64,000 nt of DNA. Origin: Tupaia tana (taxonomy: Eukaryota > Chordata > Mammalia > Scandentia > Tupaiidae). The position numbers were made by a program, and so were the translations under genes. The DNA lies in NCBI GenBank assembly GCA_026018925.1, contig JAKSZU010000003.1, positions 6,306,367-6,370,366 of the forward strand, written 5' to 3'. Of this stretch, positions 3,381 to 64,000 are shown piece by piece. The notes under the pieces were generated by a model. It saw only the letters and a list, made by a program, of their open reading frames with translations. It was not told the origin of the DNA and searched no databases. Within the stretch, counting starts at the first letter, position 1, and each line of letters begins with the position of its first letter.

Positions 3381-3904
3381 CAGAAAAATAAATGTGAAGT
3401 TCTATGCTAGAAGTAATGGACAGAAGTTAATGAAAAATAGGAAAACACTCTATAAAGCTAAAAATGAAGACATCGATTATGCATGGAAAGATCGGCTCTG
3501 TCATGTCCCAGAGGACGCATACATCTATTGGTGTGCTAATCATGAATCAAGTGGAGATCTATCATAATGACCTGAAAATTCAAAGAAGCTGTGGATTTTC
3601 AACAAATGGGTTGCAGAAATTTAGGGAAAGATGAGGCATTAAATTTGTAAAGAATTGTAGTGATAAAGCACCTGCTGATCAGGAAGCAGTGAAGAAATTC
3701 ATTGATGAGTTTGCCAACACCATGAAAATATGACACGAGGACAAGTATATAATGTTGATAGAACATCACTGTTTTGGCATCATTGCCCCAGAAAGGCACA
3801 GATTATAGCTGCAGAGCGAGCCTGAAAGGTACAGAATAACTGTGCTGGGGTGTGCTAATGCGGCAGGCATGCAGTTTAAACTTGCTATGACTGGTCAAAG
3901 CTTC

Positions 3905-4187
3905 TCTATTTTTTAAAAATTAATTTGAAGAGGTCTTTGCCTTAGGGCATGTGTGCCCATGGGGAGAGAAAGAGAGACAGAGAGAGACACACACAGTGAG
4001 AGGGAAAGGAGAAATAACCTCCCAGGGAGGATGGCCACGCTACAATCCCTCCTCTTCCATTCTCCTCCTGGGACCTTGGGAATACACACACACCTGGTGT
4101 GATTTTCAAGCCACTAGTACAGGACTCAAACCATAGTCGGCCATGTGTGAGTCCAGCTATGTAATCACTACGTCATTTGCTGGCTCC
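3905..4187 (-). mobile_element. tRNA-derived SINE inside the transposase pseudogene
   Basis: Minus-strand SINE with the typical purine-rich AGAGAGACAGAGAGAGAC segment, the body and a diverged tRNA head ending at ATTTGCTGGCTCC. Confidence 0.8.
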
Positions 4188-4194
4188 TATTTTT

Positions 4195-4226
4195 TAATTT
4201 TTTAAAAGTTCATTTTTTATGAGTGA

Positions 4227-4265
<39 letters not shown>

Positions 4266-4456
4266 CAGAGAGAGAGAGAGAGAGCGCACCCCCTGTAAGG
4301 TCTTGATCCAGTGATCAACTCACTGTATCACTCAGCCCCAGGTCATGGCACATGTATACCTGACATACTTAGGAAGGTCTCCAGACACGAACCTTCCCTG
4401 TTGGTCAACCTCACTGAACATTGTGTTTTACCACTGTACCACCAACTGGCCCCCAG
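4195..4456 (-). mobile_element. SINE copy carrying a (CA)n(GA)n microsatellite
   Basis: T-rich start, a (CA)n tract at about 4227-4263 and a GA tract precede a minus-strand head ending at CCACCAACTGGCCCC. The middle is unlike the standard SINE body, so this may be a different subfamily or a rearranged copy. Confidence 0.55.
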
Positions 4457-5063
4457 AAACTGTTTTAAAGGAGTGAATTGTTTACCGGTTTATTATTATG
4501 CTAACAAAAAGATACAGATCAACAGGGACACCTGTTCTGATTGATCTCACAAACATTTTGTACCAGCAGCTCCCGCTCACTACAGGGAAATGGGACTGGA
4601 TGGCAAGTGCAAGATTTCTATTCCTTAACAACTGTCTTGCTCACCCTTCAGCTGAACTTTTCATAAAAAATATTGTTTATGGCATGTACTTTTTCACAAA
4701 TGTGACTTTGTGAATTCAGGATATCCTTAGATCAATGATGAGTAAGAATAAAACATTTTTCTGAGTAGCGTACAAGCACCAGGGAACAGTCACAGGTGTG
4801 GAAGGTTTTCAAAAGGAGCTTGGCATGAAGGTGGCTGTGCATGCTGTAACCAATGTTTGGGACAATGACTGAAGAAGACACAGCTGTGCATTCCTGGCAC
4901 AGCCTTTGGTCTGTATCCTGGTTATCAATCTTTTATCTGAGGCTAGTTTGCAAATATTTTCTCCCATTCTGAGGGTTGTCTCTTCAACCTAGTTATTGTT
5001 TCTTTGCTGTGCATAAGCTTTTTAGTTTTTGATGTAGTCCACTCTTTGTGTGGACAGAAGTCC

Positions 5064-10910: not shown

Positions 10911-11084
10911 CTTACAGCCCTCCTTGTTCCCTCAGTGAGGCAGGAGAGCATATGGTCTCAGCAGACCCATGCTGACAGTGCCAATTAGGATCTGGATCGG
11001 GGACAACAGTAGGACCAGCCATATAAGCATCAGACTACTTCCAAATTAAGATCAGGTATAATACCAGGGAGGCCGTCTATAGAT

Positions 11085-11345
11085 ACTAGAGACAGTATTG
11101 AAGGGGGTGGGTAATAGGAGGTGGGAGGGAGGGGATCAAAGAAAACAAACAAACAAAACACTTAATAGACAGAAATGGAAAGTTATCTATTGATGATAAT
11201 GTATATGGCAATGCCTTTCACTTAACTAATATGCACTGTATTCATGCTGAGAAAAACTATGTAGTACACTGATTAAATGTAAATTAAAAAAACTAGATTG
11301 TACAGTGATTAAATGTAAATTAAAACTTTTTAAAATTAAAATAAA
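11085..11345 (+). mobile_element. L1/HAL1-type 3' end inserted in the ERV
   Basis: A purine-rich G tract (GGTGGGAGGGAGGGG), then TTGATGATAATGTATATGG, then ATGCACTGTATTCATGCTG, and an A-rich end with a short internal duplication of GTGATTAAATGTAAATTAA. This is the same 3' module as in the 36-38.7 kb half-L1 and the 14-kb composite element. Confidence 0.7.
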
Positions 11346-13860: not shown

Positions 13861-13929
13861 AAGGTCATTTGTTTGTTTGATTTTTTTTTTAAGTTTCGTT
13901 ATTTTTTAAGAGTTATTTATTTTATTTAT

Positions 13930-14098
13930 TATTGTTATTATTTTTCCAAATGTGCTACAGGTCATGTGTGCTCACCAGAGAGAGACAGAGAGAGAGGGAA
14001 AGTGAGAAAGCAAGCCAAGCCACCAGGTCCCGGAGACGAACCATAGTCAACCATGTGGGAGCCCAGTGCCCCAACTACCATGCCACCTGCTGGCTCCC
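13930..14098 (-). mobile_element. Short-form SINE inserted in the composite element's A-tail
   Basis: Minus-strand short-form SINE whose head ends at CCACCTGCTGGCTCC. The flanks GTTATTATT (about 13933) and GTTATTATTG (about 14099) look like its own target-site duplication inside T-rich sequence. Confidence 0.75.
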
Positions 14099-14129
14099 GT
14101 TATTATTGTTTTTTTTTAAAAATTTTTCT

Positions 14130-14640
14130 TTCTCAGATTAGATTCACATTCCACACAAAGTCCCCACCATGATGCACACAATATACATACACATATACAG
14201 TTTTCAATAGAGAACTCCACATTTCTCTGGTGCTAAATGTTTCCTCCCCCCAACCCCCACGCCCACTCTCCACCACCCACTCCCCTCCCTTACAGCCTCT
14301 GGCATCCACATTCAACCTTTCCACTATCATATCTTCAGATCTTTCTCCCTTTGCCAGAGTGCTGATATATATATATATATATATATACTTTTTATCATTG
14401 CACATCTTTACAGTGTACAACATGGTTTTTCCCAGCACGAGTACAGTGTACATTAGTCAAGACAATGACATCACCATATACATTATCATCAACAGACAAC
14501 TTTTCATTTTTGTGTCTGTTAAGTGTGTTGTTTGTTCCCTGAATCCCTCCCTTCCGCCCTCTATTACTCATTCCCATTACCTCTCCCATACTGTCTCCAG
14601 CATCTGCAGTTGCCATCCCTGCTATTATATCCTCCAGTTC
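14130..14640 (-). repeat. Two tandem L1/HAL1-type 3' UTR modules
   Basis: On the minus strand each module has a purine-rich part (for example GGGAGGGGAGTGGGTGG) and a second part ending in AT-rich sequence. The first carries TTGATGATAATGTATATGG and TGTACACTGTACTCGTGC, close to the module at 11085-11345. A (TA)n tract at 14365-14388 lies between the modules. Confidence 0.65.
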
Positions 14641-14663
14641 TTTCAGTTTTTTTTTTTTTTCAA

Positions 14664-15102
14664 TTATCAGCTCATAAAGTTTTCAACAATAGGGAACACA
14701 GATTCTATTCAGGGTTGGATTAAGGGTGGGTCTCATGCAGTTCTGCAATTGTAGGTGAGTCTCCATGGAACACAGTTTCAGGAAAGCGGTTCTGGTGAGC
14801 AGAGATGGTTATCAGTTGATGCGGCACAGCATCCATCTTGTGATTACCGGGAATGGTGTTGTGGGGATCTGCACCGTGAGTCATCCTCGGGTATCTGGCT
14901 GGCTTCCTTAAGTATGGTAGAGTAGTTCTTGTTTTTCCCTGAGGTAATGCAGGGCTGGTAACCATCATCTTCTCACTGTCCATAGGCAGAGAAAATCCTC
15001 CTATACAATATATTTCTCAATTGGCCCAAGACAGCTAAAGTTTCTTTCTGTTGCTTATAGTTGCAAGTTCTTAATCCTTGTTTTTGGCTTCAGTTTGTTG
15101 TC
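14664..15102 (-). other. LTR/ERV-derived segment of the composite element
   Basis: The inner part (about 14664-14860), read on the minus strand, aligns with the + strand at 42199-42405. Shared words in the same order are TAATCACAAGATGG, TTTCCTGAAACTG, CCCTTAATC, TCCCTATT and ACTTTATGA. The remainder has no match in the window. Confidence 0.6.
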
Positions 15103-15925
15103 TGCGGCCGGTGGCCACGCGCAGGCGCAGGCCCGGCAGCCATGCGTAGGTCCGGGGGCCACGCGGAGGCGCAGGCCCGGCGGCCACGCACAGGCGCAGG
15201 CCCGGCAGCCACGCGCAGGCCCGGCGGTCACGCACCGGCCTGGCGGCCACGCACAGGCGCAGGCCCGGCGGCCATGCATAGGCCCGGCGGCCACGTGCAG
15301 GCACAGGCCCGGCAGCCACTCGCAGGCCCGGCGGTCACGCACCGGCCCGGCGGCCACGCACAGGCGCAGGCCCGGCGGCCATACGTAGGCCCGGCGGCCA
15401 TGCGCAGGCGCAGGCCCGGCAGCCATGCGCAGACCTGGCGGCCACGCTCAGGCTTCGCGGCCACTCGCAGGCCCGGGGGCCACACGCAGGCCCGGCAGCC
15501 ACGCGCAGGCGTAGGCCCGGCGGCCACGCGCAGGCCTGGTGGCCACGCACAGGCACAGGCCTGGCAGCCACGCGCAGGCCCGGTGGCCACGCGCAGGCTC
15601 GGCGGCCACGTGCAGGCGCAGGCTTGGCGACCACGCGCAGACGCAGGCCTAGCGGCCATGCCCGGGCCCAGCGGCCACACGCAGGCACAGGCCTGGGGGC
15701 CACGTGCAGGCCCAGCGGCCACGCACAGGCGCAGGCCCGGCAGCCACGCGCAGGCCCGGGGGCCACGCGCAGGCCCGGCGACCACGCTCAGGCCTGGTGG
15801 CTGCGCGCAGTTGCTGGCCCGGCGGCCACACGCTGGCCCAGCGACCACACTCAGGCCTGGTGGCCGCGCGCAGGCACAGGCCCAGCGGCCACGCGCAGGC
15901 CCGGCGGCCACACGCCAGCCCCGAG
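15103..15925. repeat. GC-rich CpG-dense VNTR (18/24-bp units)
   Basis: Units of about 18 bp (core GGCCCGGCGGCCACGCGCA) alternate with about 24-bp versions carrying an extra GGCGCA-type hexamer, for roughly 40 units. Both strands stay open in several frames because the units avoid stops, which yields long spurious frames of Gly/Pro/Arg/Ala. With the GC head it forms a CpG island of about 1 kb. Confidence 0.95.
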
Positions 15926-16139
15926 CGCGCAAATGTGCGCGGGTCCCAGTGCTACCTTCCGCCCACCCGCCCGGTCAAAGAAAGGAAGGACGGCGACCTT
16001 GGCCGATCCGCGCCGCTGGCCCGCGTCGGCACCGAGCGCAGGACACACCCAGTGCCGGAGAGGCAGCAGGGGCCGGGCGGTCCGGGCCGCGGCACGTGGA
16101 GCTGAGCCCCGGCCGGGCCGGCCCTCCGGCCAGGGCCCC
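15926..16139 (-). promoter_or_regulatory. GC-rich unique head of the composite element (possible promoter)
   Basis: This is a CpG-rich non-repetitive segment at the 5' end of the composite on the minus strand. By analogy with GC-rich 5' ends of SVA and L1 it could initiate transcription. That is inference from composition and position only. Confidence 0.4.
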
Positions 16140-16259
16140 TTGTTTGTTTGATTTTTAAGATATTCTTTTTGATGTTATACAGTTTCAGTATTATGTGTTA
16201 AGGCTGATTACTTACTTTTCTTCTCTGGGATTTATTAGAGTTCTTCATTTGTGGCTTGG

Positions 16260-25494: not shown

Positions 25495-25763
25495 AGGAAG
25501 GCTGGGCAGTTGTGAGTCTGGACCAGCGTGGCTAATGGTGGGCACTTGCTCCTGCATAAGTGGTTAGACAGTGGTTCACTTTCCATTGGCAAGAGCTTAT
25601 ATTGCCTCACGAATGAGTCTAGCAGTTACAAGAAGCTGGGCAGCTCTTGGGTCTGGACCAGCTTGAATAATTGTGGGCACTGGTTCCTGCATCTGTGGTT
25701 AGAGGATGTTTCACTTTGCACCTGCAAGAGCTTATGTAGCCTCACAAAAGAGTCTGGCAGTTA
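25495..25763 (+). repeat. Tandem duplication, two ~134-bp units
   Basis: Units 25495-25628 and 25629-25763 share GTCTGGACCAGC, GTGGGCACT-G-TCCTGCAT, GTGGTTAGA, AAGAGCTTAT and GTCTGGCAGTTA-type blocks. One frame is open through both units (25528-25830), but with no recognisable protein domain and no splice support. Confidence 0.8.
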
Positions 25764-26837
25764 TCAGATTCCTGGGAAGGCCTGGATGACAGGGATAACT
25801 GGGCCTTCTGACCACCATCAACTAGGGTAGCACAGACTTCTTTGCAGGCAGTTGCAGGGGGAGCAGAAAGAGAAAGCAAATGACAACGCATCGGCCTTCG
25901 CAGGGCTGCCTGCATCATGCTTTCTGTTGTGATGTTGTCCAAAGCAAGTCCCACAGCCCACCCAGATCACAGGGCTGTATCTTGAAGGAGGGGTTACAAA
26001 TCCATGTCCCAAAGAGGCGTGCACACAGGGATGGGCTCATGTGTAGCCATGTATGCAATCTCCATCGATTTTCATCCACGCTATCAACACTGGCCAGCGG
26101 GTGCAGTGCTAGAGTTGGCCTCTGGTACGTTTTCATTCACCGCCCTTTGCTGCCTTTTCTATTCCCCTTCCCTATGTCCAACCAGTGCCCTCAGGATGTC
26201 CCTGGGAGGAAGCCATCCACTGTGTTGCTGACCAATAATTATGTGGACACCCATCCTCAATTGATGCAGACAGTCTTAGCCTTCCTCTACCTGGTGCTCT
26301 CAGTCATAAAACTTTTGGAAATAGACTTTTTACACCCCAGGATTCTGGTTGTCCAACATGGGAGACTCAACCTTAAGGATAGGGAAGGGTTGTACAGCCC
26401 ACCTCTATAGTTTCATAATGAGAAGAAGAGCTGCATTTTGAAACTAAGTTGGAGAGGGAAATCTCACAATGCCAATGTCCCAAGGTAGGATTTTGTGTTA
26501 TCTCCTGCATGACCTCCTTAGGAACAGCAACTAGAGCAGCTCATAGTTCCAACCTGAAACCTTGTATCTCCTCCTCTGTGGGCTACAGAGGTATAAAGGT
26601 CAGAGAAAGAAGCCCAGAAGAGTCTTGAAAAGAGAAACTGAAGACAGGAGAGGGCAACGACCCATGTCCTGGGAGATGGACACCAGGCCAGAGGGGTTTC
26701 CAGGAACTTCCTGTGAGTTCAGAGGGAGCTCAGGGTGAAGCCACCATCACAGAGAGGGACAGTGGAGTGTGGGCTCTGCAGGGAAAACTGCTGGAGGGAC
26801 ATTCTAACACTATTGCTTTTGTTCCTTGATGTCCCAG
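25764..26837. other. End of the GIMAP4 intron, no other gene recognised
   Basis: Moderately GC-rich sequence with overlapping short frames on both strands. None shows a family match. It ends at the acceptor of the main GIMAP4 exon. Confidence 0.55.
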
Positions 26838-27769
26838 GGTTGGAAAATGAAGATTCCAGAGATTCCCAGCTGAGAATTGTCCTAGTGGGTAAAACTGGAG
26901 CAGGAAAAAGTGCAACTGGGAACAGCATCCTCGGAGAGAAAGTGTTTCGTTCCAGCCTGTCAACTAAGTCCATCACCAAGACCTGTGAGAAGCGCAGCAG
27001 CAGGTGGCAGGGAAGAGAGCTCGTCGTGGTGGATACACCTGGCATTTTTGACACAGAGGTGCCAGATTTCGACACGTGCAGGGAGATCGCTCGCTGCATC
27101 CTGCTGACCTCCCCGGGGCCTCACGCTATGCTCCTGGTGGTCCCGCTGGGCCGTTACTGTAGGGAAGAGCAGGAGGCCACAAAGAAGGTCCTGACAATGT
27201 TTGGAGACAGGGCAAGAAGATTCATAGTTCTCGTTTTCACCAGGAAGGATGACTTGGAAAACACTGATATCCACGAATACCTGGAGGACGAGCCAGGAGG
27301 CATTCGGGAGCTGGTGGACGAGTTTGGTGGCCGCTACTGTGCATTGAACAACAAAGCAACGGGGGCTGAGCAGGAGGCCCAGAGGGAGCAGCTGCTGGCT
27401 CTGGTCCAGCGCGTGATGAGGGAGAACCAAGGAGAATGCTACACTAACAAGATGTACCGGAGGGCGGAGGTGGAGATTCAGAATCAAATCCACCTGTTGC
27501 AAGAAAAGCACAGAGCAGAGCTGGAGAGGGAGAAAGAACAGATAAGATTGGAGTATGAACAGGAAATCAGAAAGCTGAAAGATGAGCTGGAACAGGAAAA
27601 GAGAAAGGCACAAATGGAGAAGGAATTAGCAAAAAGGGAGGCTTTCTATGATGACAGGCAGAGAAATGCCAGAAGCGAAGTTGAGAGTCAGAATCAGGTC
27701 CTTGACATAATCCTCAAAGTATTAGAAATTGCTTCCTGTGTTTTCAAATCTCTGTTTAAGGATGATTAA
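26838..27769 (+). CDS. GIMAP4: GIMAP4 main exon: GTPase domain and coiled-coil tail
   Basis: GIMAP4 is a cytoplasmic, membrane-associated GTPase of lymphocytes in the AIG1/septin-like GTPase family. It is linked in mouse and rat to T-cell death kinetics. Joined to 20626-20644 it gives 316 aa. AIG1 domain: P-loop [11 protein letters not shown] (residues 24-34), G3 DTPG (72-75), the family box SPGPHAMLLV (98-107), G4 TRKD (141-144) and a G5-like ALNNKA (175-180). From about residue 225 to 290 the sequence is Glu/Lys-rich heptad-like coiled coil. The extreme C-terminus is weakly hydrophobic. The acceptor GATGTCCCAG ends at 26837. The open frame continues upstream into intron, but the phase supports the splice. 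All motifs are intact, so this is very likely a working gene. Identification over other GIMAPs rests on the C-terminal coiled coil and overall similarity. Confidence 0.93.
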
Positions 27770-36055: not shown

Positions 36056-38706
36056 GCTTGAAGACACAGCTTCATGGATTCTGCAAACTAGCCATTTTGG
36101 GGAAACAGAAATCAAGATTTCCCACTGATAATTCGGCCTCCAGCACACAAAACTTGCGTGGTAGGAAGACCCCTTTAAGGCCTCCTGTCTCTGTACCTGT
36201 CTTTGTCTCTCTCTACCTCTGTCTCTGTTTCCTCTCTTTCTTTTTAATGTTTGCTTTTTAGAATTTTGTGTGGCACGCTTGTGCGCCACACGGTTTTCCA
36301 ATTTTTGTTTTTTTACTGAAATTTGTTTACATATCAATTTTTTTAGTTTTATTGAAAAGTTTTTATCTTCGTTTTTTCTTCTCTTTTTCTGTTTCTTGTT
36401 TGCTTTTTGCTGTTGTTGCTGTTTTTTTCTCTCTTTCTGTTTCCTTTCCTGCACGCTCCTCGACGCTCAGATTGAACTTCCAAGTTTGGGAAGAAACAGA
36501 CCATCAACCAGATGACTAGAAATTGCAGCAGGACCACAAGAAATTGGGAAAGCAGGAAAATACCTCTTCTCCAAGGGAAAAGGATAACTCGTCTTCATCC
36601 ACACACAGTTCAATGGAATTCATGGAAATGTCTGATAAAGAATTCAGAACATTCATAATGGCAAAACTAACAGAGATGGAAGAGAAGAGAGACAATGAAC
36701 TGTGGAAGAGGAAGGAGAAAGAAATTGTGGAGTTCCAGGAGGTGAGGAAATTCATGCAAGATCTAAAAGAGGAATTTCACACTTTACAAAAGAATCAGAT
36801 GGAACTGTTAGAGATGAAGGGTACAATACAGGCAGTCAAAATCTCCCTTGAAAGTATTAAAAGGAGACTAGATCATACAGAAAATAGAATCTCAGACGTA
36901 GAAGAGAAAATTGATAGCCTAGAAAAAATCCACCACGAAGACTGAGAAAATGACCCCAAAATTTGAGATTAATATACGAGAAATACTAGATACCATTGAA
37001 CATCCAAACATCCGGATAATAGGCATCCCAGAAGGCAAAGAGACTCATAAGGGCATTGATAATCTATTCCATGAAATCCTGCAAGAAAACTTTCCAAACC
37101 TAGAGAGGCACTCAAAGATTCAGTCCCAAGAAATACAGAGGACCCCAAATAGAATCAACCCAAGAAAATCTTCTCCAAGACACATTATAGCCAGGCTGAC
37201 CAAAACCACAGACAAAGACAAGATACTAAGATTGGCAAGAGAAAAACGGCAAGTTAGCTACAAGGGGTATCTTATCAGACTAACAGCAGATCTCTCATCG
37301 GAAACAATGCGGGCGAGGAAGGAATGGGAAAATATATTCAACGTATTAAGGGAAAAGCAATTTCAACCAAGAATACTGTACCCAGCAAGATTATCGTTCA
37401 TTTGGAAAGAAAAGACACAAACATTCCCAGATAAACAAAACCTGAAAGAATTTACCAGCGCCAGACCAGATCTCCAAGAAGTTCTCAAGGGAGTGCCATG
37501 CCAGTAAAATTAAATGCAGACACACAGAAATAAGAGTTCAAAAACTAAGAAAATGGGCAACTTAATTGTAGGGACAATGTCTGGAGATGAATATTACATC
37601 CCAGAATTCAATCTGGAAGATCGAACCACAACAGAAGAAAGATTAAGTACATGAGACTGAACTGATGAAGCAACATTCTGTGACTTGACTAAAATATTGC
37701 TGCTTTTCTTCTAAGCTTTGTTGTCCAGTTTTAAAGGATTTTTGTCCTGCCTTGAGCTGTCAATAGGTTCATGTACCTACTATTTGAACAGAATACTAAC
37801 CTGTTTCTAGGCTTTAAGTTTCCAAGAAATATCCTTACCAGCTCAAAACTGCTTTTCTTGAAATTACCAGCTGAACTTGCTATTGAAAGTAGTTAGATTA
37901 CTTATGATATTATGTGATCAACAAAATGTTGGGGGAAAAGGAATTGAAGACAAGTGTAGACAGCATTGATAGTGTATTAAGAGAGTGGGAAAGGGCAGAG
38001 GGTCAGACATGGGGTAAAAAACATATATATAGATATATATTTTCATATATATATATACATATATATGAACGTAAAAATGGAATATTATTGATGATAACAT
38101 GCATGATTAAGCCACTATGCAGTTTATTCTAGATGGGAAACCACATTTAGTATGTTGTGATAATGCTCAGGGAATGAATGTTAAGTAATTAAAAAAAGGT
38201 TGCAGGAGAAAAAAAAAACAGTAAAACTGTTCTTATCAAAATTTAAAAAATGCATATTTGATGACTGCAGTAAGCTATATAGCCCCAGCTAGGTATTACT
38301 TTATAGTATGTTCATTCTACTCACTGAGGTTTATGCCTAAAGTCAGACTTGAGTTCATGTATTTACATATCAGCTGTGCTAGCTACTGGATATATTTAGA
38401 CTAATTAAGTTCATTAGCAAATCAATTAAATGGGGGGGAAAGGCATAGAAAGCAACCATGGATACCAGAGACAATGGGAGGAGGGTGGGACATGGCAGAG
38501 GGTGAGGGATAGGGAATCAAGTATGGCAAAACAAAAAACAAAGTATACAAGACATAAGAATTGAAAAAATTATTTGCTGATAACATGTATGTTGATGTGC
38601 TTGATTGAGCCAATATACAGTGTATTTTGGATGGAAAATTCATTTGCATGTTGTAATGATGTATAGTGAATTAATGTAAAAATAAATAATTTTAAAGAAG
38701 AAAAAA
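36056..38706 (+). mobile_element. Half-L1 (HAL1-like) element: ORF1 only
   Basis: Complete insertion with a 13-bp target-site duplication AAGACACAAAACA (36043-36055 and 38707-38719). Order: 5' UTR (36056-36522), ORF1 (36523-37507), a remnant of the ORF1-ORF2 junction and ORF2 start (about 37510-37590), then a unique 3' region with two related modules (37915-38215 and about 38220-38700) and an A-rich end. The whole of ORF2 except its first codons is missing. It would need L1 enzymes in trans. HAL1 elements with this layout are known from mammals. Subfamily assignment needs a consensus. Confidence 0.8.
36523..37507 (+). pseudogene. HAL1-like ORF1 (RNA-binding protein), one frameshift
   Basis: The L1 ORF1 protein is a trimeric nucleic-acid chaperone that coats L1 RNA. 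Two overlapping-by-homology pieces encode it: 36523-36945 (140 codons; an N-terminal and coiled-coil part rich in Glu and Lys) and 36950-37507 (185 codons; RRM-like and C-terminal domains, with the typical PNIRIIGIPEG and SSETMRARKEW segments). They are in different frames, so one small indel near 36940 breaks an otherwise well-kept gene of about 325 codons. Good conservation suggests a rather young element. Confidence 0.8.
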
Positions 38707-41339: not shown

Positions 41340-42620
41340 TCCGACCCGGTGGGGCCTCAGGATCTGTTTGAGCCTTCCACCTTTGAGCACAGCCTTAGTT
41401 GGCTCAGCACATTGGCAAGGCCACTGCTTTACGCCCCCCCCCCCCGCCCCCCCCCCCCCCCCCCCCCCCCCCGACCTGTGAACAAAGCTTGGGTCGACTC
41501 AGCATGTTGGCAAGGCCGCTTGCTGTATGCTCCGGAGACTGCAGTAGCCTTGCTGGGAATCCACCCCCCTCTGACTCCCTGATATACTACTATAAAAGAA
41601 TTACATAGCTCTCTCATACATCTTGAGTATGTGGTAAGATTTCCCGAAAGTCCCCGACCACTCCCTTTTGCCCTGACCACCTACTGTTAATTATAATACT
41701 TCATCCCTGTGGTCACAATAGAGGGTGTGCTGAAGTTCTATCTAGGCAGAAATCTTCTTGACTTTTGGAAGGCCCTTCAAGACATATTTAATATAAATAA
41801 CCTTTTTACATACAATAGGATTAGGTCGAAACTGGCCCAGGACACTCTCGCCTAATGGTAACTAATGTTCTAACAAAATACATAACAGTGGTGCCATAGG
41901 CTACACAAGTGAATCCACAACAAAACACTTAGGTACCATAAACCCATTTTAAAGTTTTTCATTAACTTGTTAGTCATTTTAATTTTGACTTAAGAAAAAC
42001 TGGTACTGCTAGTTGGAGAAGCTGTTTAAAGTATCCCCTTATTCTCACCAAGGGAACAGTAGGCTCATCCCTTTAAAATAGATAGATATATTAGAATTTC
42101 TTGAATTAAGTTTTAGATCCCTATAGAATTATATAAGTGTCATTCTTTATTGAGATCCATAACAACTAATACCTATACTTGAGATTTTCTTTTAGTAATC
42201 ACAAGATGGCTGCTGCCGAACATCGGCTGATAATTAACTCTGCTTGCTGGAACTGTTTCCTGAAACTGCACTCCTTGAAGTTCCCAAGAACCTGCTTTCA
42301 TCAGTCAAACAATTGTTGAATTGTATCGATGATTAATAGACCTGCCCTTAATCAAATCCTGAATGAAATTTATGATCCCTATTATTAAAACTTTATGAAT
42401 TGATAATTAGAGCACGTAGCCCCTCACCCGTTTACTTGCATGTATCACATTTTCAATAAAAAGGCACAATGATTCCTAGCAGTTGTCACTCTTCAGAGAG
42501 CAATCTCTTAGGATGTCCGACACACAACATGCACGAAGAAGGCACCGAGGCCTCATTCTTTCCTTCCAGCATTGCCTCCGACGAGTCAACCCACCCCCGC
42601 TGAGGCTGGTCCCCGGCAGA
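41340..42620 (+). mobile_element. Probable class I ERV LTR/internal remnant
   Basis: A U3-like left part carries two copies of a ~50-bp block (CTCAGCA-TTGGCAAGGCC) around a poly-C tract, and a TATA-like ACTATAAAAG at about 41588. The right part (42190-42620) looks like another LTR region: ATAAAAAGGCACA at about 42457, then TCTTCAGAGAGCAATCTC and CGACACACAACATGCACGA, as in class I R-U5 sequence. The middle is unassigned. Whether this is one LTR, two LTRs with a short internal part, or separate elements is unclear. Confidence 0.45.
41434..41472. repeat. Poly-C tract
   Basis: 39 bases, nearly all C, broken by a single G at 41446. Such tracts are unstable and are often sequenced imprecisely. Confidence 0.9.
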
Positions 42621-47621: not shown

Positions 47622-48525
<904 letters not shown>

Positions 48526-56404: not shown

Positions 56405-56697
56405 TAAGACCCCAAACTACTAAACTGCTTCTAGAAAACACTGGGGAAACTCTGGGAGACATTGGGGTAGGGAAAGACTTCTTAAATAAGACCCCCAAAG
56501 CACAGTCGATAATCCCCAAAATAGACAAGTGGGATTACATCAGACTAAGAAGTTTCTGCATGGCAAAGGACACAGTAATTAGTGTGAAACAACAGCCCTC
56601 AGAATGGGAAAATATTTTGTAAATTATGCATCAGATAAGGGATTGATAACCAGAATACACAAGGAACTCAAGCAGCTGCTTAGAAAAAAGATGATCA

Positions 56698-57213
56698 GAT
56701 TCTCCTTGCCTGCTAGCTGGCGCAAGGCCCACCTACAAGCCTCTGGCAGCAAGGGATATTGAGGGAGGGTCTCCTCTGACCCCTACCCCCACTTCCAGAC
56801 TTCCCAGTCCAAGACTCCACCTTCTAGATTCTCCTTGCCTGCCAGCAGGCACAAGGCCCACCTACAAGCCTCTAGCCAGCAAGGGATATTGAGGGAGGGT
56901 CTCCTCTGACCCCTACCCCACTTCCAGACTTTCCAGCCCAAGACTCCACCTCCTAGATTCTCCTTGCCTGCCAGCAGGCGCAAAACCCACCAACAAGCCT
57001 CTGGCCAGCAAGGGATATTGAGGAAGGGTCTCCTCTGACCCCCACCTTACTTCCAGACTTCCCAGCCCAAGACTCCACCTCCTAGATTCTCCTTGCCTGC
57101 CAGCAAGCTCAAGGCCCACCTACAAGCCTCTGGCCAGCAAGGGATATTGAGGGAGGGTCTCCTCTGACCCCCACCCTACTTCAAGACTTCCCAGCCCAAG
57201 ACTCCACCTCCTA
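56698..57213 (+). promoter_or_regulatory. Four tandem 129-bp 5' UTR monomers of L1-C
   Basis: Four copies start at 56698, 56827, 56956 and 57085, each GATTCTCCTTGCCTGC and each ending CACCTCCTA or a near variant. Units are equal in length and highly similar. Tandem monomers serve as promoters in mouse L1 families. The same role here is inferred. Confidence 0.85.
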
Positions 57214-57475
57214 GAGGGACTAGACCGGTCTAGAATCAGATATCTGAAATTTCCTAGTGAGGTAAGTGTCTCTGGGATCCTCCCGTGTACTGATCCACCT
57301 GTGAAAACGGAGATACTGCTTTTTAGACACCTCAGTAGAGTTCCCCTCTTGAAAGGGGAAAAACAACAGAAGAGAGTCTTTAGCAAACATCTATTCCCAT
57401 CCAAAAGGAAGCACTCTTACTCCTAGTGGGAGAAACGTTCCCCCAAGAGGTTTTCAAAAGGGAATAAATTTTCCA

Positions 57476-58436
57476 ATGGCTAGAAGTAGAAAAAGAGCCT
57501 CAGGTCTGAATAAACAAGGAAATATGTCTCCAACAAAGGAAAACACCCCTCCATGTCTCGTAAATATGGAGGACGTTACCAAAATGACAGACATAGAATT
57601 TCAAACATTCATGGTGACCAAATTCTGTGAATTGGAACAGAAAAGAGACAACGAACTGCAGGAAATTAGGAAGTCCTTCCAGGATATGAAAGAAGAAATG
57701 GATACTCTGAGAAAGAATCAGGCAGAACTATTAGAGATAAAGTCTATAATACAAGAAATCAAAAACTCTCTGGAAAGTATTAAGAGCTGATTAGACCATG
57801 CTGAAGATCGAAACTCCGATGTAGAAGATAAAACTTCTGATCTAGAAAAAACCACCAAAAACATCGAGAAAATAACTAAAAAACACGAGGATAATATGTG
57901 AGAAATACTAGACTCTATTAGACGCCCGAACATCAGAATAATTGGCATCCCAGAAGGTGAAGAAACTAATAGCGGAATGGAAAATCTATTCCATGAAATC
58001 CTGGAAGAAAATTTCCCAAGCCTAGAAAGGCACCGAACCATCCAGACCCAAGAAATACAAAAGACCCCAAATAGAATCAACCCCAGAAGATCATCCCCAA
58101 GGCACATCTTAGCCAGGCTGTCTAACACCACAGATAAAGACATGATACTAAAACTGGCAAGAGAGAAACGAGAAGTAACTTACAAAGGCCATCCAATAAG
58201 GCTAACACCAGACCTCTCATCAGAAACAATGCAAGCAAGGAAAGAATGGAAAGACATATTGAAAGTGTTAAGAGAGAAACAATTTAAGCTGAAACTATTA
58301 TATCCTGCACGATTATCCTTCATTTGAGAAAAAAAAGATTAAAATCTTCTCAGACAAACAAAACCTGAAAAAATTCGCCAACACCAGACCAGCTCTTCAA
58401 GAAACCCTGAAGAAAGTACTGTTCCAGGAAAACTAA
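57476..58436 (+). pseudogene. L1-C ORF1, broken
   Basis: L1 RNA-binding protein. ATG at 57476, coiled-coil part to about 57900, then the RRM-like and C-terminal domains (segments NIRIIGIPEGEE and SSETMQARKEW). In-frame stops at 57788-57790, 57898-57900 and 58325-58327, and a shift in an A8 run near 58330. Otherwise colinear with the half-L1 ORF1. Confidence 0.85.
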
Positions 58437-58480
58437 AGAATCAACAGCCAGAAACAAAGAAATAACAGGCAACTAAGACA

Positions 58481-61400
58481 ATGGCCAACTTAAATGTCGG
58501 TACAGATCCTGTTACATCGATAATAACATTGAATGATAATGGTTTAAATTCTCCAATGAAGAGACACAGATTGGCTGAATGGATAAAAAAACAGAAACCC
58601 TCTATCTGTTGCCTACAGGAAACCCACCTCATGGAGAAAGACATACATAGACTGAAAGTGAAGGATTGGAAAAAGGTTTTCCATGCAATTGGGAACCAAA
58701 AAAGAGCTGGAGTAGCGATACTAATTTCTGACAAAATAGGCTTTAAAACAAAAACTGTTTGAAGAGACAAAGAAGGACACTATATTGTAGTAAAAGGCTC
58801 TATAGATCAAGAAGATATAACGCTTATTAATATCTATGCACCTAACACAGGAGCACCCAAATATGTGAAGGAAAGACTGTTAGATCTGAAAGGGGAGATA
58901 GACTGCAACACACTAATTGTTGGAGATCTCAACACCACATTATCCCCTCTGGACAGATCATCTAGGCAAAAAATAGGTAAAGAGATAAAGGATCTAAATG
59001 ATATCATAAATCAATTGGACTTAACAGACATTTATAGAACTTTCCACCCCAAAACCACAAGATAAAGTTTTTTCTCACCCCACCATGGAACTTTCGCGAA
59101 GATTGACCACATCATAGGACACAAAGCAAGCCTCTATAGATCCAGAGGCATAGAAACTATATCCAGCATCTTTTCTGACCATGATGGAATTAAACTTGAG
59201 TTTAATTTCAAGAGAAATATTCAAAAATACCTAAAAACATGGAAACTAAATAACCTACTCCTGAATGACTCCACTATTACAGAAGAAATAAAGACTGAAA
59301 TCAAAAGATTCATGGAAGCCAATGACAATGAAGACATGAGTTTCCATAATCTTTGGGACACTGCTAAAGCAGTCGTAAGAGGGAAGTTCATAGCAATTAG
59401 TGCACATAAGAGGAAGACAGGAAGAAGGCTAATGTATCAACTAACATCAAGCCTCAGAGAATTGGAAAAGGAACAGCAAAAAAATCCAAAAAATTCCAGG
59501 AGAAAGGAAATAATAAAGATCCGAGCAGAAATAAATGAAATAGAAAATAAACGTACTATACAGAAAATAAATGAAAGTAAAAGCTGGTTTTTTGAAAGGA
59601 TAAACAAAATTGATACACCACTAGTGAGACTTATTAAGAAGAAAAGAGAAAGGAACCAGGTGAATCAAATCTGCAATGAGGCTTGTAACATAAAAACAGA
59701 CATAGTAGAAATTCAAAACATCATCAGAGGATACTTTGAACATCTATATGCTAAGAAACAAGACAATCTGGATGAGATGGACAAATTCCTGGACAAATAT
59801 AATCTACCAAGAATGAGCCAGGAAGAAATTGAAAGTCTGAATAGGCCCATAACAATCCAGGAGATTGAATCAGTAATAAATAACCTTCCAACAAAGAAAA
59901 GCCCTGGCCCTGATGGATTTACCTCTGAATTCTACAAAACTTTCAAAGAAGAGTTAATTCCCATTCTGCTCAAGTTACTTCTAAAGATCCAAAAGGGTGA
60001 ATCTCTCCCTAATTCATTCTATGAAGCCTCTATCACCCTCATCCTTAAAACAGACAAGGACAGGACAAGGAAGGAAAACTATAGACCAATATCTCTGATG
60101 AACATAGATGCAAAGATTCTCAACAAGATATTAGCAAATCGTATTCAACAACTTATAAAGAAGATCATACACCATGATCAGGTAGGCTTTATTCCAGGAA
60201 TGTAAGGTTGGTTCAACATACGCAAAACCATAAATGTAATCCATCATATTAACAGGAACAAGGATAAAAACCATATGGTCATATCGATTGATGCAGAAAA
60301 AGCATTTGATAAGATATAACATCCCTTCATGATCAAGACTCTCAGGAAAATCGGAATAGAAGGGCCATTTCTCAATACAATAAAAGCCATCTGTGAAAAA
60401 CCCATAGCGAACATCATCCTGAATGGAGAAAATCTGAAAGCTTTCCCACTAAACACAGGAACAAGACAAGGATGCCCACTGTCTCCACTCCTTTTTAATA
60501 TAGTACTGGAAGTCCTCGCCAACGCAATCGGAAAAGAGGAAAAAGATAAAGGGCATTCAAATAGGAAAAGAAGAGGTGAAACTCTCTCTATTTGCAGATG
60601 ACATGATTGTATACATAGAAGACCCAATGGTCTCCATGGGAAAATTACTGGAAGTAATACGTGATTACAGTAAAGTTGCAGGATATAAAATCAATATACA
60701 GAGGTCAATAGCATTTCTATATATGAACAACAGGCAGACTGAGATAGAACTGAAAAAAGTTATTCCATTTACCATAGCCACCAAAAGTATTCAATATTTA
60801 GGAATAAATCTGACCAAAGAAGTTAAAGACATCCCCAAGGAAAACTATGAGAAGCTAAAAAAAGAAATTGAAAATGACACTAAAAAAAATGGAAGGACAT
60901 CCCATGTTCATGGATTGGAAGAATTAATATAATCAAAATGGCAATTTTACCCAAATTAATCTACATATTTAATGCAATGCCAATCAAAGTACCAGACACA
61001 TTCTTCACAGACCTAGAAAAGACAATCATAAAATTTGTCTGGAATCATAAAAGACCCCATATTGCCAAAGTAATTCTACACAAGAAGAGTGGAGTGGGTG
61101 GCATCTCACTCCCCAACCCAAAAATACAAAGCTATGGTAATCAAAACAGCATGGTACTGGCACAGAAACAGACACGTGGACTAATGGAACAGAATAGAGT
61201 CCCCAGAAATAAATGCCCAAACATACAGTCAACTGATCTTTGACAAGGGGTACCAGTCAACCCAGTGGGAAAAGGAAAACCTCTTCAGCAAGTGGTGCTG
61301 GAAAAACTGGATCTCCACTTGCAGAAAGATGAATCTGAACCCCTACCTCTCACCTTTGACAAAAATCAAGTCAAGGTGGATCAAGGATCTAAATCTAAGA

Positions 61401-62189
61401 CCTCAAACTATAAAGCTGCTCCTGGAAAACACTGGGGAAACTCTGGGAGACATTGGTGTAGGGAAAGACTTCTTAAATAAGACCCTCAAAGCACAGTCGA
61501 TCATCCCCAAAATAGACAAGTGGGATTACATCAGACTAAGAGGATTCTGCATGGCAAAAGACACGGTAATTAATGTGAATTGACAGCCCTCAGAATGGGA
61601 AAATATTTTTTTAAATTCTGCATCAGATAAGGGACTGATAACCAGAATACACAAGGAATTAAAGAAGCTGTTTGGAAAAAAGATGATCAACCCTATTAAA
61701 AGATGGGAGAAGGAGTTGAATAAAACACTCTCTAAAGATGACATATGAATAGCCAAAAGGCATATGAAAAAATGTTCAACATCTCTCATCGTAAGAGAAA
61801 TGCAGATAAAAACAACATTGAGATACCACCTAACCCCAGTCAAAATGTCTAAGATTAAAAAAACAAAAAATGATAAGTGTTGGCGGGGATGTGGTGAAAG
61901 GGGAACTCTTTTACACTGCTAGTGGGAATGTAAATTGGTCCAACCACTGTGGAAAATAATTTGGATATTCCTCAAAAATCTACAAATAGATCTACCATAC
62001 GATCCAGCAATCCCATTCCTTGGTATCTACCCAAAGGACAGAAGAATTCTTCATTGGAAAAGTGCTTGCACATTGATGTTTATTGCGGCACTATTCACAA
62101 TTGCTAAGTCATGGAACCAACCCAAATGCCCCCGTATGGAGGAATGGATTGAAAAACTGTGGCACATATACTCTATGGAATACTATTAA
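58481..62189 (+). pseudogene. L1-C ORF2 (endonuclease/reverse transcriptase), broken
   Basis: Starts MANLNVG. The endonuclease domain covers 58481-59200 and includes CCLQETHL and VGDLNTTLSP. The reverse transcriptase covers roughly 59800-60930, with [27 protein letters not shown] and the catalytic FADD (60591-60602). The C-terminal region, with [10 protein letters not shown] and [10 protein letters not shown], ends at 62189. Stops at 58760, 59063, 60203 and 60317, and a frameshift near 60550, inactivate it. Total length fits an intact L1 ORF2 of about 1,236 codons. Confidence 0.9.
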
Positions 62190-62644
62190 GCCATAAAAAA
62201 CAACAAAACCCTGGCTTTTGACAGAAAGTGGAAGAATATGGAAGACTTACTGCTGAGTGAAGCAAGCCAGGCTATGAAGGAGAGACACTGTATGTCCCCA
62301 CTTAACATATACCGAATATCTGCACTCTATGACTGAAACTGATTGACCAATGGTTGTACAAACACAAGAGATGGGTGTGAATGTCAGATGAGGTGTATGT
62401 GGAGGAGGAGGGCCTAATGAAGGACATTTGGAGAAGGGATAAGGAGGTAGAACATTGATGGGATGGGGAAATGTGGTGTTATCGGTTGAAGATATTTTGA
62501 TCAATGGGACTGGGGAGAAATGTTCACATATTGAAATGCTCACATTGTAAGCTAAACAATGCAATTTAATGTATATACAAAAAGAAATAAAAAAAAGAAT
62601 AATAAAATAAGTAAAATTAAATAATTCTTTTTTTTTTTTTTAAA
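62190..62644 (+). other. L1-C 3' UTR and tail
   Basis: Contains GGTTGTACAAACACAAGAG, a purine-rich G tract (GTGGAGGAGGAGGGC), and ends near AAGCTAAACAATG, followed by AT-rich tail with a T-run at 62629-62641. This 3' UTR differs from that of the half-L1. Confidence 0.8.
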
Positions 62645-63564
62645 AAAAAAGATGATCAACCCTTTTAAAAGATGGGAGAAGGAGTTGAAAAAAAACACTC
62701 ACTAAAGATGACATATGAATAGCCAAAAGGCATATGAAAAAATGCTCAATATGCCTCATCGTGAGGGAAATGCAGATCAAAACAACAATGAGATACTACC
62801 TAACCCCAGTCAGAATGGCTAAGATTTAAAAAAAACAAAAAAATGGTAAGTGTTGGCAGGGGGGTGTGGTGAAAGGGGAACACTCTTACATTGCTGGTGG
62901 GAATGTAAATTAGTCCAACCACTGTGGAGAACACTTTGGAGATTCCTCAAAAATCTACAAATAGAACTGCCATATGATCCAGCAATCCCATTCCTTGGCA
63001 TCTACCCAAAGGACAGAAGAATTCTTCATTGGAAAAGTGCTTACACATAGATGTTTATTGCGGCACTTTTCACGATTGCTAAGTTACGGAACCAACCCAG
63101 ATGCCCCCGTACGGCTGAATGGATTGAAAAACTGTGGCACATATACTCTATGGAATACTATTAAGCCATAAAAAACAACAAAACCCTGGCTTTTGACAGA
63201 AAGTGGAAGAATATGGAAAACTTACTGCTGAGTGAAGCAAGCCAGGCTATGAAGGAGAGACACTGTATGTCCCCACTTAATATATACCGAGTGTCCACAC
63301 TCTATAACTGAAACTGATGGGCTAAAGGGTGTACAAACAGAAGAGATGGGTGTGAATGCCAGATGTGGTGTGTGGAGGAGTGGGGCCTGGGGAAGAACAT
63401 TTGGAGGAGGGATACGAAGACAGCATTGTTGAGACAGGGAGGTAGTGTTGTTATATTTTGATCAACTGGACCGGGGAGAAATGTTCACATATTTAAATGA
63501 TCACCTTGTAGGCTAAATAATGTGATTGAATGTTAAAAAATGTAAATTAAAAAAAAGTCAATTA

Positions 63565-64000
63565 GACCATGCGGAAGATCGAATCTCTGACATAGAAGAT
63601 AAAATCTCTGACCTAGAGAAAAATCACCAAAAAGATAGAGAAAATAACAAATAAACAAGAAGATAATAGAGGAGAAATACTAGACTCCATTAAATGTCCA
63701 AACATCCAAATTGATATCCCAGAATGTGAAGAAACTAATAAAGGCATGGAAAATCTATTCTGTGAAACCCTAGAAGAAAATTTCCCAAGTCTAGAGAGGG
63801 ACTCAAGCATCCAGACCCAAGAAATACAAAGGACCTCAAGTAGAATCAACCTAAGAAAATTTTCCCCAGGGCACATCTTAGCCAGACTGGCCAAGGCCAC
63901 AGATAATGACAAGATACTAAAATTGGCAAGAAAGAAACGACAAGTGACATAAAAAGGTCATCCCATCAGGCTAAAACCGGACCTTTCAGCAGAAACAATG
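63565..64000 (+). pseudogene. L1-A ORF1, second part, cut by the window edge
   Basis: Resumes with GACCATGCGGAAGATCG directly after the L1-B target-site duplication. It codes the central and C-terminal ORF1 region with stops and an indel, and ends at the window edge. Confidence 0.85.

Follow-up and report, generated by a model that had tools for sequence, protein, structure and literature searches.

A probable family of SVA-like VNTR composite retroposons in Tupaia tana, and signs of an RNA-edited founder in one of its two groups

In the accessible parts of two reports, retroposons composed around a VNTR are described as hominoid-specific (PMC4432496; PMC7353768). According to the first of these, hominoid VNTR composites share a CT-hexamer/Alu-like 5' region, the SVA VNTR is made up of units of 30-50 bp, and LAVA contains an L1ME fragment (PMC4432496). 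Among the matches listed in the open-licence literature, whose texts were available in part, all VNTR composites were from hominoids, and none of the matches described a subfamily that goes back to ADAR editing. In this study, we analyzed a stretch of 64,000 nucleotides from Tupaia tana (hereafter the window), together with related copies in the same genome, and compared a composite element at this locus with the hominoid systems and with L1.

The composite retroposon occupied 13886-16139 on the minus strand and was enclosed by a perfect 17-bp duplication, the 17-mer TTGTTTGTTTGATTTTT being present in identical copies at 13869-13885 and 16140-16156. In minus-strand order it consisted of a GC-rich head, a VNTR, an LTR-like piece, an A-run, a first 3' module (module 1), a TA-rich run, a second one (module 2), an A-rich stretch and a SINE. 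A preliminary description of this DNA had reported the head, VNTR, LTR-related stretch, A-run and two 3' modules within a perfect 17-bp repeat; we read the same order, and the 17-mer proved to be exact. However, the last 213 bp, which that description had counted as part of the element, are a separate SINE and no part of the family. The features are as follows, in window coordinates.

13869-13885, unstranded: target-site duplication on the element's 3' side (perfect 17-mer)
13886-14098, minus strand: SINE and A-rich tail, inside the duplication and outside the family (diverged relatives in the window; no other long row of the genome search spans the SINE)
14099-14122, minus strand: A-rich stretch with which the family ends on its 3' side (30 of the 41 other long rows stop at query 2017-2067; end sequence common to the eight loci read)
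14123-14365, minus strand: module 2, a weakly L1-type 3' end according to shuffle-tested alignments, with 26 of 33 A>G sites (at 14151-14349)
14366-14388, minus strand: TA-rich run between the modules, an A-run in other copies (junction comparison of loci)
14389-14646, minus strand: module 1, an L1-type 3' end (relatives at 11057-11298, near 38440 and in the flank of L002)
14647-14660, minus strand: internal A-run, interpreted as the remnant of an earlier poly(A) tail (found in all eight loci read)
14662-15105, minus strand: LTR-like piece, non-coding (resembles window 42195-42408)
15106-15922, minus strand: VNTR of GC-rich 19- and 25-bp units (unit count and TRF)
15923-16139, minus strand: GC- and CpG-rich head (CpG observed/expected), its 5' end shorter than in four other loci (L002, L005, L006 and L007 extend further)
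16140-16156, unstranded: target-site duplication on the element's 5' side (perfect 17-mer), with TCTT before it when the minus strand is read

The G+C content was 0.77 in the head and 0.80 in the VNTR, and the CpG observed/expected ratios of these two parts (0.91 and 0.83, respectively) were above that of the whole window (0.29). Of the 38 pieces into which the VNTR could be divided, 21 were 19-bp units and 14 were 25-bp units, and TRF reported periods of 19, 25, 44, 63, 82 and 107. When reading frames were judged by eye, no ORF1 or ORF2 domain was recognized in the composite, and frames of at least 110 amino acids lay over the VNTR or were antisense. A scan against Rfam gave nothing at gathering score in the window copy (L001) or in seven other copies (L002-L008); the window copy had two lncRNA matches below the threshold (E 0.14 and 0.82), and the other seven had none up to E 0.1.

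Using the whole element as query, we obtained 54 matches from the 40 that were scored among 9755 loose candidates, and at least 41 long rows besides the window copy were found in the same genome, some of which were neighbors. Most of these 41 rows ended at query positions 2017-2067 (30 rows), the others at 2123 (one), 1886-1959 (five), 1751-1777 (four) and 1455 (one). We read the eight loci that scored best against the window copy, L001 itself included. The junctions between VNTR and LTR-like piece, between LTR-like piece, A-run and module 1, and between the two modules were present in all eight (seven of seven besides the window copy), and the junction of head and VNTR in seven (six of seven), the exception being L008, which is cut within the VNTR. 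An A-run followed the LTR-like piece on its 3' side in all eight loci, and an A- or TA-rich run was found after module 1. The test that the preliminary description had named for itself, further copies with the same junctions and different target-site duplications, thus turned out in its favor. We consider it very probable, judging from sequence comparison, that the window element is one copy of a non-autonomous composite family of L1-type retroposons. At L003, the first VNTR composite was directly followed downstream by another one (approximately 3800-5059), whose head looked different and whose 3' end lay beyond the fetched stretch.

Target-site duplications, A-rich 3' ends and variable 5' ends are the marks of target-primed reverse transcription by L1, and all of these were observed in the family. 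Exact duplications, all different in sequence, were found in L001 (17 bp), L002 (13), L004 (17), L005 (12) and L008 (16). In L006 a 10-bp duplication abutted both ends of the element, and in L007 the duplication matched at 16 of 17 positions with one mismatch (by eye), whereas no duplication was accepted for L003, where the longest match (10 bp) lay in an A-rich run and was within the control range. Duplications were therefore clear in five loci, probable in two (L006 and L007) and absent in L003. As a control, the upstream flank of one locus was compared with the downstream flank of another in 56 crossed pairs; the longest match was at most 9 in 53 pairs, and 10, 12 and 14 once each. In view of this control, the duplications of L006, whose 10 bp are within this range by length, and of L007 rest on their position. 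With regard to the 5' ends, the heads of L002, L005, L006 and L007 reached approximately 40-60 bp beyond that of the window copy (by eye), and the 5' end of L008 lay inside the VNTR. On the 3' side, L002 had about 200 extra bases with AATAAA and then a short A-run, and L004 had about 80 extra bases similar to the 3' end of the L1 in the window (z 8.8); together with the window copy and its SINE, three loci carried extra sequence on this side. With regard to the signs of L1 targeting pointed out earlier, TCTT precedes 16140-16156 on the minus strand, and a TT/AAAA-type endonuclease site was seen by eye in L001 and L007, with variants in the other loci. We also observed by eye that the L002 and L003 copies each lie within or next to a 3' end of L1 type, similar in the two loci.

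An Alu sequence would appear as an SRP family in Rfam, and no SRP family was found in the scan of the window copy and L002-L008. The Alu start (allowing up to three mismatches) had no match in the 64-kb window or in the 39,223 bases of the eight loci. Near-matches to CCCTCT in the window copy occurred only within the SINE (13981-14004), and there were none in the 300 bp around the head start of seven loci. The family resembles SVA in being non-autonomous and in having a GC-rich central VNTR, which is a feature of the hominoid composites, a retrovirus-derived part, an A-tail and target-site duplications. It differs from SVA in its VNTR units (19 and 25 bp versus 30-50 bp in the accessible text on SVA), in the two additional 3' modules after the LTR-like piece, and in that the CT-hexamer and the Alu-like 5' domain were not found. 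As far as the same text goes, LAVA, PVA and FVA of gibbons are also VNTR composites whose 3' ends carry other sequences, but they have the CT-repeat/Alu-like 5' region of SVA, which was not found here; this comparison concerns the build of the elements. Compared with L1/HAL1 3' ends, module 1 is similar to L1-type ends of the same genome, whereas the composite as a whole had no recognized ORF1 or ORF2 domain. Because no Alu start was found in the window or the loci and VNTR composites are called hominoid-specific, the assembly of this family looks independent of the hominoid VNTR composites. The name SVA-like, as used in the preliminary description, is appropriate for build and insertion marks and not for membership, since neither a CT-hexamer nor an Alu-like domain was found; its suggestion that this lineage made a VNTR composite of its own gained support both from the missing Alu start and from the same junctions at seven other loci.

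To trace the parts, we aligned them with six stretches of the window, mostly 3' ends, and calculated z scores from 60 shuffles each. The LTR-like piece aligned to 42195-42408 (z 35), which continues into a stretch bearing AATAAA. This relative supports an ERV-LTR-like origin of the middle part, as had been proposed. Module 1 aligned to 11057-11298 (z 61) and to a stretch near 38440 (z 24), and remained unmatched against the 3' end of an ORF1-bearing element (37500-38240; z 0.8) and against two 3' ends of L1 (62190-62640, z -0.7; 63180-63570, z -0.8). In the flank of L002, a relative of module 1 (z 9.8) was found within sequence that resembles the end of the L1 in the window (z 24); this pairing with an L1-end-like stretch supports the assignment of module 1 to an L1 3'-end type. 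For module 2, a z score above 6 was obtained only with the stretch at 11057 (z 7.9), and scores of 2.8-4.1 with three L1-type stretches, suggesting more weakly that it might also be an L1-type 3' end. Hence, of the L1/HAL1 3' end claimed earlier, the L1 type appears to hold for module 1 and less firmly for module 2, whereas the HAL1 label was not supported, given the z score of 0.8 against the ORF1-only element. None of the six stretches contained a relative of the head. Other L1 remains lie in the window: ORF1 domains were located at 36950-37504 and at 57977-58324, and part of a reverse transcriptase at 59312-60202. A HAL1-like element was observed at 36523-38240, in which L1 ORF1 domains are followed by non-coding sequence and an A-run, with no ORF2-type frame of at least 110 amino acids listed after them, and L1 pieces at 57977-63570 comprise remnants of ORF1 and of reverse transcriptase, together with two 3' ends in succession that resemble each other.

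The window is rich in repeats, and separate old insertions could have piled up by chance at this locus alone. However, the recurrence of identical junctions at seven other loci with differing duplications makes such an origin extremely improbable, and we rejected it for the family on that ground; it may still apply to the SINE alone. It is also unlikely that the family is an internally deleted L1, in which head and VNTR would be the L1 5' UTR of this lineage, with tandem promoter monomers, joined to an L1 3' UTR. Tandem 5' monomers are known in some L1 families, and the L1 3'-end type of module 1 would fit as well, yet an LTR-like piece lies between the VNTR and the 3' modules in all eight loci read, and the head had no relative among window stretches that were mostly 3' ends. 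With regard to the SINE (13886-14098), it is a fair question whether it belonged to the mobilized unit of the window copy as a 3' transduction or was inserted later into the A-tail. Transduction is a serious possibility, slightly less likely than not. The SINE lies within the 17-bp duplication, no clear duplication of its own was seen by eye, and one other row enters it for about 80 bp (C1197:1039899). On the other hand, 39 of the 41 other long rows stop at or before the SINE start (one reaches query 2067, one 2123, and none spans it), and the A-rich surroundings would mask a short SINE-specific duplication. The SINE is putatively of tRNA type; ARAGORN found no tRNA gene within the window. Its relatives are scattered across the window and must be diverged, since the first 28 bases of the SINE, allowing up to three mismatches, matched only themselves.

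An alignment of 984 bp, which began with the LTR-like piece and ran up to the 3' end, divided the eight loci into an A-rich group (L004, L005 and L008) and a G-rich group (L001, which is the window copy, L002, L003, L006 and L007), a split that the earlier account, describing a single element, had missed. Divergence was 5.4-8.3% between the groups and 2.6-3.2% and 2.3-4.6% within them. We rejected the use of age to tell which group is ancestral, because within-group divergence was similar and does not show which one is older. When near-fixed differences were defined by agreement in at least two of three A-rich and four of five G-rich loci, 41 were found, of which 33 were A>G on the sense strand and eight were others, including two G>A and two T>C; positions 1514 (A>G) and 1888 (C>T), at which only three of five G-rich loci agreed, were excluded. 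Twenty-six of the 33 A>G sites fell in module 2, whereas A>G accounted for 6 of 42 and 6 of 82 private changes in the same alignment. The base 5' of the changed A was G at one of 33 sites, as compared with 85 of 366 when every A is counted (Fisher p 0.002); it was T at 18 of 33 (p 3e-5). According to the accessible part of one report, hyper-edited sites show strong depletion of upstream G, and downstream G is preferred in mammals (PMC5625713). Both the clustering of A>G and the upstream-G depletion expected of ADAR hyperediting were present here; the mammalian downstream-G preference was not clear (8 of 33 versus 69 of 366 in the background). In the predicted fold of L005, a single copy considered without statistical test, changed A were moderately more often paired, at 0.48 versus 0.34 (31 sites). 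With 33 A>G changes clustered in module 2 and G avoided upstream, we read the pattern as a hyperedited founder: the G-rich group, the window copy included, probably descends from one reverse-transcribed RNA that had been hyperedited by ADAR.

This reading depends on direction. The A-rich version of module 2 aligned better than the G-rich one to both relatives tried (80 versus 53 and 44.5 versus 34), and when it was the query, A was found in the relatives at 20 and 17 of 25 sites, respectively. When a G-rich copy was the query, the 11057 relative had G at seven sites, A at six and C at three, with ten unaligned, and the L1 3' end at 63180-63570 had G at three and A at one of 25 sites. The base found in relatives thus depends on the query, so that the direction from A to G is favored rather than settled. 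The split might have arisen without RNA editing, by APOBEC-type G>A change or decay from a G-rich ancestor, or by exchange of module 2 with the 3' end of another L1 subfamily. DNA-level editing of retroelements is G-to-A, of the APOBEC kind, in the accessible part of one report (PMC2873906). Read as G>A, the sites had 3' neighbors G 14, T 10, A 5 and C 4 versus A 90, G 73, T 53 and C 33 in the background, so that a GG context (14 of 33 versus 73 of 249) would suit such an origin. In addition, among the 82 private changes of the G-rich group, G>A (27) and C>T (22) were the most frequent, and the relatives found with the G-rich query lean slightly to G. However, decay acts on both strands, yet the reverse reading would contain 33 G>A and only two C>T, and an exchange of module 2 should leave differences both ways, yet there were 33 A>G versus two G>A. 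Neither the avoidance of G 5' of the changed A nor the better fit of the A-rich version, with A at most sites in that comparison, favors these explanations, and we regard an origin of the split without RNA editing as rather doubtful.

3' transduction is known for SVA, and a similar process may account for the present family. In the mechanism we propose from sequence, the CpG-rich head and the VNTR would carry the promoter, and the polyadenylated RNA would be inserted by L1 proteins in trans via target-primed reverse transcription. The 3' end would have grown through successive 3' transductions, by which module 1 was gained first and then module 2; the internal A-runs would be old poly(A) tails, after each of which flanking DNA was acquired by read-through. 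Candidates for assembly intermediates are the row that stops at query 1455, C420:105337208, and the four that stop at 1751-1777, C309:170157677, C111:8379901, C403:206580 and C353:28390534. The extra 3' sequences of L002 and L004, and possibly the SINE in the window copy, might represent the same 3' capture, still continuing. Taken as a whole, we are inclined to believe that a non-ape mammal built its own VNTR composite by a 3'-transduction ladder that still continues, and that one subfamily was founded by an ADAR-hyperedited transcript.

If the assembly was indeed independent, the family could separate general features of SVA (a CpG-rich head, a VNTR and an LTR-derived part) from accidents of descent. 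The A>G split, if confirmed, would represent RNA editing that was carried back into germ-line DNA and subsequently multiplied in the form of a subfamily; RNA editing would in that case be a heritable change of a mobile-element lineage.

Several other features were observed in the window. Reading frames of AIG1-family (GIMAP-type) GTPases were located at 26735-27769 on the plus strand and 47833-48447 on the minus strand. In addition, a 135-bp unit was present in two tandem copies at 25501-25763, and a 129-bp unit in four tandem copies with 93% match at 56697-57215.
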